From contig CANQAY010000009.1 in the NCBI GenBank assembly GCA_947589025.1, forward strand, positions 1 through 40,241: DNA of 40,241 bases. The letters are read 5' to 3'. The notes below the pieces were generated by a model. The model was given only the letters and a program-made list of their open reading frames with translations. It was not told the origin of the DNA and ran no database searches. This DNA is from an uncultured Clostridia bacterium (lineage in GTDB: Bacteria > Bacillota > Clostridia > Christensenellales > UBA1242). Positions 3,746-26,869 of the stretch are shown here, in pieces. The position numbers and the translations under genes were made by a program. Each line of letters begins with the position of its first letter. Within the stretch, counting starts at the first letter, position 1.

Positions 3746-3833
3746 TGGCGCAGGGCTAGGGATTCGAACCCCAGGAGGCTTTCACCTCGGCAGTTTTCAA
3801 GACTGCTGTATTAGACCACTCTACCAGCCCTGC
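3746..3833 (-). tRNA. tRNA-Ser (anticodon UGA)
   Basis: Reading the minus strand from 3833, the acceptor stem GCAGGGC pairs with GCCCTGC, followed by discriminator G and an encoded CCA (3748-3746). The anticodon stem GCAGT/ACTGC holds the loop CTTGAAA, giving anticodon TGA, which reads UCN serine codons. A long variable arm and the T-loop GGTTCGAATCC are present, as expected for a type II tRNA of 88 nt. It has its own promoter and terminator, so it is a single-gene unit. Confidence 0.96.
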
Positions 3834-22954: not shown

Positions 22955-22982
22955 AAAAGATGCGTAGTTTTACGCATCTTTT
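22955..22982. terminator. Bidirectional terminator between the acpS unit and ileS
   Basis: Twelve-base perfect stem (AAAAGATGCGTA and its complement) with a GTTT loop. It contains the ileS stop codon. Confidence 0.85.
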
Positions 22983-25900
22983 CTTTGCATTTTTATTGTT
23001 ATTTTTTCATCGGCAATGTCAACCGTTTCAGCAATTTCTGGCGCGGTTAGTTTTTTAATTTCAAGGCACAGAAGTTCGCTCTTAATTTTGCTGGCGTACT
23101 TGGTTATAATTTCATTTAAATCGGCACTATCAGTGCTAAATTCAATATAAATTCGGTCCTCCACCTTAAAATCTGCCTTTTTCCTTAGCACTTGCGCGGC
23201 GCGGATAAGTTCACGCGATAGGCCCTCAAGCATAAGTTCGCGGTCAATTGTAACATCCAGCACAACGGTAATGTCACCATCGTTGGAAATAACATAATCC
23301 TGCTTTGGCTTGGTGGCAAGGGTAAATAGCCCGCTATCAAGGTTATTAAATTCCTTAATATTTACTTTGCCGGATTTAAAGCCTGCAACATATGCGCGCA
23401 TTTCAGTTTCAGTTGCGTTTGCTAAATAGTTTTTAACCTTTTGCACATCGCCTTTAAGCGCTGCACCCGCACGCCTAAAATCTAACGCCAAATATTCATC
23501 ATTGAATTTGGAATTATCATGCTCCAAAACCACATTTTTAATGTTAAGTTCGCTTTCAATAATGCCGGCATAAAGTTTAACCGCCTTAGCAACATTTTGG
23601 TTGCCGTTTATATATAAAGTTTTAAGCGGCTGCTTAACTTTAATTTGATTTTCGTTCCTTAGTTTACTTACCATTGTAAAGATATTTCTAACAATGTTGG
23701 TGTACAGGGTTAAATTTTCATCTTTAACTTTAAATTCGCCTATAACATAGCCGTTAAGGGCAACGCTTTCTGCCGCGCTTTTGTCCAATTCCCTTACCGC
23801 ATTTTGCCACAAATATTCAGTTATAAAAGGAATTATTGGGAACATAACCATGCAAATGTTTTTAATTGCGTAGTTAAGGCAGAAATAAGCGTTTAATGTG
23901 TCAGTATCATTTTCGCTTTTATAAAACCTGCGGCGGTTGTTGCGGATGTACCAGTTGGTCAGTTCGTCAATTAGCAGTTCAAAATCCTTGCTAACCGCAC
24001 CAAATTGAATGTTGGAGTAAGCCGTGTGCGCGTTTTTAACAAACTCATTAACGCGGTTAATTAGCCATTTATCCATAAAGGTCAATTTGTTTTCATCCGG
24101 CTTAAAGTTGGTTAAATCCGGCCTATCTATAACCGCATACGTGTTTAAGAAAATATACGCATTCCAAAGCCCCAATAATTTACGCTTAACCTCATCGCAA
24201 GTATCCCGCCCAAACTTAACATCGTTAATTAGCGGAGTGCAAACAAAGTTGTAACGGATAATGTCCGCACCAATCTCTTTAAAGGCGGTGTCCAGCGGAA
24301 TGTTGTTAGGGCTGGATTTAGATAACTTTTTGCCATCCTGCGCAAGCAACATTGGGGTTGTGCCAATGCGCTTGTAAGGCGCTTTGCCTGTTAAAACAAC
24401 ACTCATAACAAGCAATGAATAGAACCACAAACGGATTTGTTCCTTTGCTTCAATAACGCACTCAATAGGGAAATTTTTGTTAAAGAATGCTTTATCAGTA
24501 AAGTATTTTTTAGTGCTAAATGGGGTAATGCCCGCATCAAGCCAACAATCACCAACTTCTTTAATGCGCTCAACCTTGTTGCCGCAATGTGGGCAAGTTA
24601 TTTTAATTTTGTCAATATAAGGGCGGTGCAAATGAGGCAGAGAGTCAACTTCTTGTTCGCTAGATAATTTTTTAAACTCATCAAGGCTGCCAACCACCGT
24701 TAAATGGCCGCATTTCTTGCATGGGTAAAAAGGCAATGGCAAGCCATAATAACGGGAGCGGGATATTGCCCAATCCCCCATATTGTTAAGCCAATCCAAC
24801 ATGCGTTTTTTCATGAAATCTGGGTTAAATTCAACGCCATCAATGGCTTTTATTAGTTCTGGCCTAATTTCATCCATCTTAATAACCCATTGAGTTATAA
24901 GCCTATAAAGAAGTGGCTTTCCGCACCTATAGCAGTGAGGGTAACGGTGGGTGTACTTATGAGTGTAATAAACTTTATTTCGTTCTTTTAAAATGTCAAA
25001 AATGAAATCGCGCGTTTCGTCAGTGTTGGCGTCTTTTCCTGCAAGCACGCCAAAGTTAGAGTAGAACAAGCCGGCCTCGTCAATGGGCACAATTTTGTTT
25101 AGGCCTAGGCGTTCACCCAACTCAAAGTCCTCAACGCCACAGCCGGGGGCAATGTGCACAGCACCGCTGCCTTCGGTTTCGTCAACTTGCTCCCATGCAA
25201 CAATTTTATGCTCAAATTGTTGCTCCTCGAGTTCATTAAAAGGTGTTTCATAAATTTGCCCAACAAGTTCGCTGCCTTTAATGGTTTTTATGACTTCCAC
25301 CACATCGTCTTTAAGCACTTTCATTGCGTTTGCGTGAACAATTAAATTGCGGTTTGAAGACTTAATTTTAACAATATTGTAGTTCATTTCTGGGTTCACA
25401 GCCACAGCCACATTGGCGCATAGTGTCCATGGGGTGGTTGTCCAGACGAGCATATCGTTGTTGCTGTTTAAAATTGGGCATTTAAAGAATATCGCTTGGC
25501 AGGTATCGTCACGATAAACGCCATCACTTGCCATATCATGTTCTGCAATTTGTGTGCCGCACCTTGTGCACCATGGCATAGGGCGGTGGGAAAGTTTAAG
25601 CCAACCCTTTTCATCACATTTTTTTAAGAAATACCAAATAGCAGTTATGTTATCGTCACTATTTGTAAAATAACTATCATCCCAATTCATCCATTGACCA
25701 AGCCTAATTGAAGATTTTGTCATGGACTTTGCGTATTTATCAACTGTTTTAAGGCAGGTTTCAACAAATTTGTCAATGCCATATTGCTCAATCTCTCTTT
25801 TGCTGTCAATGCCCAACTCGCGTTCAACACGTTGTTCAACAGGCAAACCGTGACAGTCAAACCCGTTTTGGAAGTGCTGGTCGCATCCGCAAAGGGCGTT

Positions 25901-26113
25901 AAACTTAAACATTGCATCTTTAAAAGTGCGGTTGTAAGCGTGGTGTAAGCCCATATCGTAATTGGCAGTAACCGGGCCGTCAAGCGTGGCAAAATATTTG
26001 CCAGTTTTTTTGTTTTTGGCCTTCATTTTTTCAAAAATATCGTTGGTTTGCCAAAAGGATAGCACTCCTTCTTCCATTTTAACATAATCTAAATTGCCTT
26101 GTTCTTTTTTCAT
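22970..26113 (-). CDS. ileS: Isoleucyl-tRNA synthetase, IleRS2-like with GXHH signature
   Basis: IleRS (1047 residues) charges tRNA-Ile. The nucleotide-binding motif reads GLHHAY (G55-L-H-H58), not HxGH: first and third positions are swapped. The KMSKS loop is KLSKS in DGKKLSKSSPNN. The editing domain is complete (ETEGSGAVHIAPGCGVED). Two Cys pairs lie in the catalytic region (MPWCTRCGTQ; HRYPHCYRCG), and another zinc-like set follows (YPCKKCGH, CPHCGN). The long C-terminal extension after the anticodon-binding domain is typical of the eukaryote-like IleRS2 type. The SD AAGGAG precedes the ATG. It follows the phosphatase gene by 10 bp. No T-box motif is seen upstream. Confidence 0.96.
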   Translation of the reverse strand: MKKEQGNLDYVKMEEGVLSFWQTNDIFEKMKAKNKKTGKYFATLDGPVTANYDMGLHHAYNRTFKDAMFKFNALCGCDQHFQNGFDCHGLPVEQRVERELGIDSKREIEQYGIDKFVETCLKTVDKYAKSMTKSSIRLGQWMNWDDSYFTNSDDNITAIWYFLKKCDEKGWLKLSHRPMPWCTRCGTQIAEHDMASDGVYRDDTCQAIFFKCPILNSNNDMLVWTTTPWTLCANVAVAVNPEMNYNIVKIKSSNRNLIVHANAMKVLKDDVVEVIKTIKGSELVGQIYETPFNELEEQQFEHKIVAWEQVDETEGSGAVHIAPGCGVEDFELGERLGLNKIVPIDEAGLFYSNFGVLAGKDANTDETRDFIFDILKERNKVYYTHKYTHRYPHCYRCGKPLLYRLITQWVIKMDEIRPELIKAIDGVEFNPDFMKKRMLDWLNNMGDWAISRSRYYGLPLPFYPCKKCGHLTVVGSLDEFKKLSSEQEVDSLPHLHRPYIDKIKITCPHCGNKVERIKEVGDCWLDAGITPFSTKKYFTDKAFFNKNFPIECVIEAKEQIRLWFYSLLVMSVVLTGKAPYKRIGTTPMLLAQDGKKLSKSSPNNIPLDTAFKEIGADIIRYNFVCTPLINDVKFGRDTCDEVKRKLLGLWNAYIFLNTYAVIDRPDLTNFKPDENKLTFMDKWLINRVNEFVKNAHTAYSNIQFGAVSKDFELLIDELTNWYIRNNRRRFYKSENDTDTLNAYFCLNYAIKNICMVMFPIIPFITEYLWQNAVRELDKSAAESVALNGYVIGEFKVKDENLTLYTNIVRNIFTMVSKLRNENQIKVKQPLKTLYINGNQNVAKAVKLYAGIIESELNIKNVVLEHDNSKFNDEYLALDFRRAGAALKGDVQKVKNYLANATETEMRAYVAGFKSGKVNIKEFNNLDSGLFTLATKPKQDYVISNDGDITVVLDVTIDRELMLEGLSRELIRAAQVLRKKADFKVEDRIYIEFSTDSADLNEIITKYASKIKSELLCLEIKKLTAPEIAETVDIADEKITIKMQRKDA

Positions 26114-26122
26114 AATTTCTCC

Positions 26123-26686
26123 TTAAATTATTTCGTTATAATCGAATATTACTGGTTTGCCGTTAGGCAGTTCAAAATTTAAATAATTTCCATCTTTAGG
26201 CTCGCCCTTAAAGTAACTCATTAACACACATCCAACACCACCATGCGAAACCAATAGAATGTTTTTATCTTTATATTGTTTCAATTCCTCTAACAAATTA
26301 AAAACGCGTTTTTTTAATTCGCTAATAGATTCAGCCCTTTTAAAATGTTGATTAGAATTTTTGTTCCAAAACCCATTAAAGTCAAATTCACTTCTAGTCA
26401 ATCCTTCAAATTCGCCAAAATCTCGTTCAATCAATCGGTCATCAATTTTAATAGGGGTTTCCCCCTTATAAACAATTTCGCACGTTTGTTTTGCTCTAAT
26501 TAGCGGGCTGCACAACACAATATCAAATTTAATTTTGTTAATTGTTTTTGCTGTTTCTTTTGCTTGTTTAATTCCATTTTTATTTAAAGTAATATCCGCT
26601 CTGCCTTGCGCTTTTGGGTCTTTAACGCCTAAGGAATTTACATTATCATTCCAATCAGTTGCCCCGTGCCTTATAAAGTAAATCAT
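26123..26686 (-). CDS. Histidine phosphatase superfamily protein (phosphoglycerate mutase-like)
   Basis: From the ATG at 26686 the protein has 187 residues. RHGATDWN holds the catalytic RHG with His7 as phosphate acceptor, LIRAKQTCEI is the second arginine motif, IERDFGEFEG is the family's ERxxG motif, and LLVSHGGVG carries the second catalytic histidine. This is the cofactor-dependent mutase/phosphatase branch 1; the exact substrate is not clear. The AAGGAG site lies 12 nt before the ATG, longer than usual, with no alternative start in between. It is the first full gene of a gpm-ileS operon and follows a leader ORF and terminator. Confidence 0.88.
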   Translation of the reverse strand: MIYFIRHGATDWNDNVNSLGVKDPKAQGRADITLNKNGIKQAKETAKTINKIKFDIVLCSPLIRAKQTCEIVYKGETPIKIDDRLIERDFGEFEGLTRSEFDFNGFWNKNSNQHFKRAESISELKKRVFNLLEELKQYKDKNILLVSHGGVGCVLMSYFKGEPKDGNYLNFELPNGKPVIFDYNEII

Positions 26687-26704
26687 AGTTAAAATTTTCT
26701 CCTT

Positions 26705-26733
26705 AAATAAAAATGCCAGCCCAAGTGCTGACA
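26705..26733 (-). terminator. Intrinsic terminator/attenuator between leader ORF and phosphatase-ileS
   Basis: On the minus strand TGTCAGC, loop ACTTGG, GCTGGCA (7 bp, one G-U), then TTTTTATTT. It lies 21 nt after the leader ORF stop and 28 nt before the phosphatase ATG. Confidence 0.75.
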
Positions 26734-26753
26734 CGTTTGCATCAAAACACCTT

Positions 26754-26822
26754 CTACAACTTAATTGGTAGAATAATGTAACCAATAATTACAACTGCAA
26801 ATACAAAACTAAGTATATTCAT
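26754..26822 (-). CDS. Ile-rich 22-residue leader peptide or small membrane protein
   Basis: ATG at 26822, TAG at 26756-26754, 22 residues. Isoleucine is found at positions 3, 12, 13, 16, 17 and 20, so six of 22, with two tandem pairs. The rest is mainly Val, Leu, Phe and Ala, so it could also span the membrane as one helix. A TATAAT box lies 6 nt before the ATG, which indicates leaderless translation. The ORF stands between a strong promoter and an intrinsic terminator, with the phosphatase-ileS pair following. This is the layout expected of an attenuation leader peptide that senses charged tRNA-Ile. A KdpF-like small membrane protein is the main alternative. Confidence 0.6.
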   Translation of the reverse strand: MNILSFVFAVVIIGYIILPIKL

Positions 26823-26828
26823 ATTGTG

Positions 26829-26857
26829 ATTATATAAATAATGCAAAAAAAAGTCAA
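26829..26857 (-). promoter_or_regulatory. Promoter of the leader ORF-phosphatase-ileS operon
   Basis: TTGACT (26857-26852), 17-bp spacer, TATAAT (26834-26829). Transcription would start at about 26822, the A of the leader ATG. Confidence 0.8.
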
Positions 26858-26869
26858 TAGATTTTTAAC

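Follow-up and report, generated by a model that had tools for sequence, protein, structure and literature searches.

A probable ribosome-mediated attenuator upstream of ileS and related leaders of tRNA-charging genes in Christensenellales

T-boxes read tRNA charging, bind the tRNA directly and need no translation. In Firmicutes, the genes of tRNA synthetases are usually controlled by them, and no classical attenuator of these genes was known according to PMC1262725; the same paper lists classical attenuators of trpS and leuS in Streptomyces and of pheST in gamma-proteobacteria. A predicted His leader peptide upstream of hisS paralogues of bacilli and swaps between T-box and leader peptide are noted in PMC2965389, and his operons of some Firmicutes, Eubacteriales included, carry His leader attenuators (PMC9413887). 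For trpL of Sinorhizobium meliloti, the leader transcript begins at its ATG (PMC7298713). The ilv-leu operon of Staphylococcus aureus has a Leu-rich attenuator, and a T-box was sought there and not found (PMC5794164). A sequence-only reading of the locus described here had proposed an attenuator controlled by an Ile-rich leader peptide and had called such a peptide upstream of a synthetase gene unusual; it is indeed uncommon, but has precedents in PMC1262725 and PMC2965389.

The leader upstream of ileS in the window

The window is the whole stretch of DNA that was analysed (40,241 nt), contig C9 of a 962-kb genome. On its minus strand, a sigma-70-type promoter (TTGACT-17-TATAAT, 26829..26857, with the -35 element at 26857-26852 and the -10 element TATAAT at 26834-26829) matches the consensus in 11 of 12 positions and ranks best among 42 consensus-like sites in 10 kb, where shuffles average 33.8 sites. 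The leader ORF on the same strand (26754..26822) consists of 22 codons and a stop codon (26756-26754) and encodes MNILSFVFAVVIIGYIILPIKL with six Ile codons. Its ATG at 26822 lies 6 nt past the -10 element, i.e. at the expected +1, and the leader transcript probably lacks a 5' UTR, which would make the ORF leaderless. The promoter, the position of the 22-codon ORF behind it and the Ile residues in 6 of 22 positions, including two ATT-ATT pairs, had been reported before and were confirmed upon re-reading of the minus strand. A Pfam search of the leader peptide yielded no match. The chance of at least six Ile among 21 codons is P = 0.003 at an Ile content of 7.3% and P = 0.014 at 10%, so that the window alone is only suggestive and the relatives decide.

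The ORF is followed by a terminator hairpin (3:4, GUGUCAGC ACUUGG GCUGGCAU, 26713..26734, minus strand, -10.7 kcal/mol) with a T-rich tail at 26712-26705. The hairpin and T-run are thus present as described previously, but at a distance of 19 nt from the leader stop rather than 21 nt. From the ATG to the T-run, the leader measures approximately 115 nt. A gene of the histidine phosphatase superfamily (187 aa, 26123..26686, minus strand, Pfam PF00300, 3.9e-40) starts 26 nt past the terminator and is the first gene of the operon here. It precedes ileS (22970..26113, minus strand, NCBIfam TIGR00392, 6.4e-215), the presumed target, so that the gene order given by the sequence-only reading holds. 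The encoded isoleucyl-tRNA synthetase (IleRS), which we take to be what is named type 2, has 8c8w as its best solved relative. The only Rfam match of the window at the gathering score is a tRNA gene at 3749-3833.

The antiterminator 2:3 (26723..26752, minus strand) pairs AGGUGU (26752-26747) and UGAUGC (26744-26739) with GUGUCAGCACUU (26734-26723). Its 12 core pairs amount to -11.0 kcal/mol, compared to -10.7 kcal/mol for the terminator, and its duplex z is -2.28 against shuffled spacers, 2.3% of which were equally strong. The first reading had found only weak pairings (GAUGC with GUGUC); this pairing turned out to be part of the 12-pair antiterminator. In the minimum-free-energy fold, segment 2 of the free RNA is kept inaccessible by a pairing with segment 1 (26736..26807, minus strand): UUCUAC (26773-26768) pairs with GUAGAA (26757-26752), positions 26807-26794 pair with 26751-26736, and the stop codon TAG is paired with CTA, a Leu codon. 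This fold carries little ensemble weight (frequency 0.0003), and the leader folded by itself gains no support from overall stability (z 0.32). The signal in the window is one of alternative pairings rather than of overall stability.

Judged from its sequence, the element is very probably a ribosome-mediated transcription attenuator of ileS of the classical type. Its parts, their conservation, the mutually exclusive pairing and the match between codons and genes in sister operons were obtained by computation; the start site, the stalling, the efficiency of termination and the response to isoleucine are inferred. The transcript from the promoter would begin at the leader ATG or a few bases away. 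With Ile-tRNA(Ile) being scarce, the ribosome would stall on the Ile codons and leave segment 2, just past the leader stop, free to pair with segment 3; formation of the antiterminator 2:3 would then allow the polymerase to continue into ileS. With Ile-tRNA being plentiful, a ribosome at the stop codon would cover segment 2 and the 3:4 terminator would form.

A promoter -10 element followed by an ATG 5-7 nt further on was found at 28 sites in the same genome, compared to a single site for the reversed pattern, and 23 of the 28 sites open ORFs of at least 100 aa. Leaderless genes hence seem to be common in this genome, and the ileS leaders, as well as most of the gat leaders described below, are apparently leaderless.

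Ile leaders and their RNA switch in related ileS loci

The relatives obtained in the ileS search are uncultured Clostridia of the order Christensenellales, several of them from animal gut samples, and include two Candidatus Onthoplasma species. PMC12306168, which deals with reduced gut genomes, assigns Onthoplasma to the family UBA1242. Examined were 38 loci of the window's IleRS type, namely the window, 34 of 39 relatives and the loci L035, L039 and L028; the relatives L077, L084, L088, L093 and L096 were dropped since the ileS start is missing or since they are archaeal outgroup. An Ile leader is present in 31 of the 38 loci and a T-box in the remaining seven.

All 31 leader loci share the layout of a TTGAC-type promoter, a short ORF and a terminator. 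Among the codons past the start, 199 of 500 (39.8%) encode Ile in these leaders, which were kept only with at least three Ile, compared to 7.3% in the window's ileS. The Ile codons mostly occur in runs of 2-5, and ATT, ATA and ATC are all used. The promoter spacer is 17 in 27 of the 29 listed ileS leaders; the ATG is located 6 nt past the -10 element in 23 of them and 5-7 nt past it in 28. For L097 and L028, the leaders are manual additions with promoter entries that were typed instead of computed. Matches lost through the three-Ile filter comprise ORFs of two T-box loci (L081 and L089) as well as the LPIKF/LPVKF copies found in L066 and L085. For L066, L069 and L085 the ORF adjoining ileS was counted as the leader, and a second match in L087 was dropped. 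The leader of L039 (G002), MIELIVFVYFIGKLLLPTK, has only three Ile and carries three Leu codons in Ile positions of its relatives; the amino acid sensed by it may differ.

The phosphatase gene lies between leader and ileS in the window alone among the 31 leader loci, and in the other 30 the distance from the terminator's end to ileS does not exceed 319 nt. Because the phosphatase intervenes only in the window, the leader belongs with ileS. The expectation voiced in the first reading, that Ile codons and terminator would be kept while other residues vary, agrees with what was observed in the 31 leaders. With Ile codons and a terminator in all of these and the antiterminator found, its proposal of attenuation appears largely right.

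In a different view of the locus, the ORF is an independent gene for a small membrane protein, with a promoter of its own and an ordinary terminator, that lies upstream of ileS only incidentally. Peptides ending in LPIK appear hydrophobic and membrane-like by eye. Furthermore, L066, L069 and L085 harbour an extra promoter-driven ORF of the LPIKF/LPVKF kind with 2-3 Ile, approximately 300-240 nt before ileS, each copy being followed by a weak A + T-rich hairpin (-7 to -9 kcal/mol over this stretch), the sequence of which overlaps with the following promoter. A free-standing peptide away from ileS had been named beforehand as an observation that would speak against attenuation. This is partly borne out by the separate units in these three of the 31 leader loci, but within the upstream ileS regions searched they always adjoin an ileS leader; the ORF may be a duplicate that was retained and has its own function. 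Contrary to the membrane-protein view, many leaders are short and not membrane-like (e.g. MYKAIIIRNIIINI and MSFSTIIIGKIIISSKF), and 31 of 38 loci carry a leader before ileS together with a predicted, mutually exclusive antiterminator. Only 17-28 nt separate the end of the terminator from ileS in 8 of the 31 loci, too little for the promoter scan to place a site there. The Asn, Tyr and Trp versions before other tRNA-charging genes, described below, also speak against the membrane-protein view, which we regard as quite unlikely. Promoter-like sites (at least 10/12) between terminator and ileS were detected in L071, L080, L083, L086 and L101, and ileS would additionally be transcribed from them.

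The LPIK end recurs in the distant members G000, L070 and L092 with different synonymous codons, which is compatible with a nascent peptide whose conserved ...ILPIK end arrests the ribosome upon a small molecule or stress, instead of tRNA charging being sensed via the Ile codons. However, leaders of types B and C lack LPIK and still retain the Ile runs and the switch. The pairing of CTA with TAG in the window fold provides a reason at the RNA level for part of the motif, and an arrest peptide leaves the Asn, Tyr and Trp versions unexplained. Its probability is accordingly judged to be very slight, and attenuation through the Ile codons is kept as the preferred interpretation.

In 31 of 31 leaders there is a terminator, the 5' arm of which also takes part in a predicted antiterminator. 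Against dinucleotide-shuffled spacers, the antiterminator duplex has a mean z of -2.48 over the 31 leaders; it falls at or below 5% of shuffles in 20 leaders and is not stronger than that in 11. Pairing and covariation were analysed in an alignment of 28 leaders, with the three type C leaders left out. The 2:3 helix is paired in 85.1% of the alignment cells (23.9–43.9% when slid), and none of 500 shuffles attained its covariation score of 0.193. Changes on both sides are seen in six cells (0/500 shuffles), all of them at one pair, UA to AU or GC, while the number of double-sided pairs (437/500) and of further pair types (145/500) was no better than in the shuffles. For 3:4, 91.4% of the cells are paired, the covariation score was reached by 4/500 shuffles, and a double-sided change occurs at one pair. 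The three type C leaders feature another antiterminator, CGCUAUAUG with CAUAUAGCG, in which the logic is kept and the letters differ.

The effect of ribosome position was modelled with a ribosome covering 13 nt from the A-site codon. For the full RNA at equilibrium, the antiterminator exceeds the terminator in 0 of 31 free RNAs. When the ribosome occupies the first or the last Ile of the final run, it wins in 13/31 and 14/31 leaders, respectively; the numbers are 15/31 on the very last Ile and 5/31 at the stop codon. With the RNA cut before arm 4 (30 leaders, L097 left out), antiterminator occupancy averages 0.86 with a stalled ribosome, 0.53 with one at the stop and 0.61 in the free RNA; shuffling of the 5' part yielded a mean occupancy of 0.78. 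In this cut-RNA model, 11 of the 30 leaders keep an occupancy above 0.5 despite a ribosome at the stop, and in 8 of those 11 segment 2 begins at a distance of 13-15 nt, counted from the stop codon's first base. In these eight leaders, the ribosome would have to be released and segments 1 and 2 to fold anew. Sequestration of segment 2 by segment 1 exceeds that in the shuffles at the 5% level in only 11/30 leaders. The models thus suggest that, on average, the antiterminator is favoured by stalling and disfavoured by a ribosome at the stop, and that the free RNA would not always be protected.

The first reading had proposed folding the leader RNA with and without a ribosome on the Ile codons. 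At equilibrium the antiterminator never wins in the window's own leader, its value with the ribosome at the Ile codons being 0.12 compared to 0.84 for the terminator. The RNA cut before arm 4, which serves as a co-transcriptional model, does show a shift, with 0.91 stalled, 0.32 at the stop and 0.80 free. The window's own copy is therefore predicted to switch only modestly at equilibrium.

T-boxes, sister leaders and the exchange of controls

T-boxes lie directly before ileS in L075, L078, L079, L081, L082, L089 and L098. Their E values range from 4.7e-18 to 1.4e-4 and all are below the Rfam gathering score of 93 bits, the match in L075 being weak (36.8 bits). A different IleRS of the order (33–37% identity) has a T-box before ileS in 7 of 17 upstream regions. 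At G008:C11 (L051), in the same genus, the other IleRS type (33% identity) was found with no T-box match upstream. The window's genome has three T-box matches, among them those of thrS (a fragment, below cut-off; 88.9 bits) and of a pheS-like gene (Pfam PF02912; 78.8 bits); upstream of its valS, neither a T-box nor a leader was detected. Weak Rfam matches, one of Thr_leader at the G007 leader (E 0.35) and three others (E 0.17-0.54), are under the threshold and were not used.

The nearest IleRS relatives devoid of a leader carry T-boxes, as do thrS and the pheS-like gene of the same genome, which raises the alternative of a T-box or another tRNA- or metabolite-binding RNA missed by the models at the window. 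The first reading had seen no T-box motif, in agreement with the lack of an RF00230 match at the gathering score in the window and at E ≤ 1 upstream of ileS. The same holds at E ≤ 1 for all 11 leader loci tested, the window included. Moreover, a leader of approximately 115 nt is about half as long as the T-box model (219 positions), and the conservation of a short coding frame with its Ile codons disagrees with a missed T-box, which we consider extremely improbable.

The ileS tree comes from a quick method under LG+G4 alone, and a long branch connects its outgroup. Mapped onto this tree, the two states (T-box or leader) require a minimum of three changes, a number that the well-supported branches already impose. 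Therefore, the controls were exchanged repeatedly or ileS moved together with its regulator. The long branches (L075, L098 and the outgroup) leave the exact order unsure, and the state of L075 rests on the weak T-box match.

Leaders of the same design were also found before other genes. A predicted leaderless attenuator with the leader MKIKVNDNNNI (G000:C5:44573-44610, L118, minus strand) precedes gatC and gatA and has its own switch; gatC was identified by NCBIfam, and gatA scores slightly under its cut-off, the gene being cut. Five of seven other gatC loci of the same genus have Asn-rich leaders (MIILANDNNNNI, MIIKANNNDNNNN, MLILNNNDNNLD, MLIINDNDNNID and MIITIINNNNNNNLNHI). L136 has no Asn leader at its gatC locus, and in L135 the switch sequence is present and the locus is cut at the contig end. 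Asn accounts for 46.5% of the codons in the six gat leaders, which suggests that the tRNA amidotransferase is controlled by its own product.

One of two tyrS paralogues (NCBIfam) is preceded by the leader MIILFANTSYYYYYI (G000:C6:8418-8746, L182), which has a Shine-Dalgarno-like sequence. This leader came from 35 sites picked by eye among the matches listed of a relaxed scan, which gave 149 matches compared to 46 for the control. The run YYYYY is kept in L186 and L187; L185 begins at the contig end and is unreadable. Tyr makes up 35.7% of the codons in three tyrS leaders. The more distant tyrS paralogue has no such leader within 330 nt upstream in 11 loci. In L184, L186 and L187, the region between the Tyr attenuator and tyrS contains, as judged by eye, another terminator-like hairpin and another short ORF, the latter with the pattern Y-A-x-x-G-V-K.

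When 24 genomes were searched for the shared antiterminator pattern, eight of them matched. Two of these, G006 and G005, revealed the leaders MTININKNLNYWWNI, which precedes trpS (NCBIfam), and MKNKFNKNAKYWHCI, the trpS of which follows about 750 nt on; the leader L217 of G006 has WW before trpS. In G007 (L219), tyrS and trpS adjoin on one strand and the leader MTTILTSNLYYWWTY has both a Tyr pair and a Trp pair. The pattern also occurs in other families of the order (G025:C3:201709-201761 and G026:C17:14293-14339). Trp represents 12% of the codons in eight trpS leaders, a biased value since six of them (G020, G010, G018, G017, G002 and G016) were selected by Trp in the ORF; those of G006, G005 and G007 were found without asking for Trp. 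Terminator and antiterminator energies were computed for six gat leaders, three tyrS leaders, the G007 leader and three trpS leaders, with the values for the G000 tyrS leader referring to the second, later hairpin and not to that of the attenuator.

The leader codons match the downstream gene: Asn with gatCAB, Tyr with tyrS, Trp with trpS, and YY plus WW with the adjacent tyrS and trpS. Shuffling the labels between codons and genes reproduced the match in 0 of 20,000 cases, for a set that includes the Trp-selected leaders and in which related leaders are not independent. Besides the window leader, these genomes thus contain further switches of this sort. We consider it rather probable that in this lineage of Clostridia with reduced genomes ileS, gatCAB, tyrS and trpS constitute a small regulon in which tRNA charging is controlled by attenuators, and that these would have replaced T-boxes. 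One module (GCUAUAUG...CAUAUAGC) would be reused with Ile, Tyr and Trp runs, and at least three exchanges between T-box and leader would have taken place in one ileS family, unless ileS moved with its regulator.

Comparison with known systems

Titles and abstract openings of the open-licence literature yielded no leader-peptide attenuator before ileS, gatCAB or tyrS, and the main text of PMC12306168 does not contain the terms leader, T-box, attenuation or leaderless. The mechanism is already known, whereas its targets, the lineage and the reuse of a module appear to be undescribed, and the exchange of T-box and leader within one ileS family looks new. As each of the 38 loci has either a T-box or a leader, a swap between direct and ribosome-mediated sensing of tRNA becomes testable, and the match between codons and genes (Ile, Asn, Tyr, Trp and Tyr plus Trp) offers a ready natural set of codon swaps.

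The T-box RF00230 has the same target gene; it precedes ileS in seven sister loci and was not found upstream of ileS in the window. As in the window, a leader-peptide attenuator precedes an aminoacyl-tRNA synthetase operon in the case of pheST of gamma-proteobacteria, but it senses Phe and belongs to another phylum. The trpS and leuS candidates of Streptomyces are likewise classical leader attenuators before Gram-positive synthetase genes; they concern Trp and Leu in Actinobacteria. The transcript of S. meliloti trpL starts at the leader ATG, as we infer for the window, but controls a biosynthetic operon of an alpha-proteobacterium. The ilv-leu operon of S. aureus shares leader-peptide attenuation in a Firmicute, but is a biosynthesis operon with Leu codons. 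In bacilli, the His leader before hisS* and hisZ is similarly a leader peptide before a synthetase paralogue in Firmicutes and is discussed in PMC2965389 as a replacement of T-boxes. It is specific for His and is found with duplicated paralogues, whereas the leaders described here precede ileS, gatCAB, tyrS and trpS of a Christensenellales lineage.
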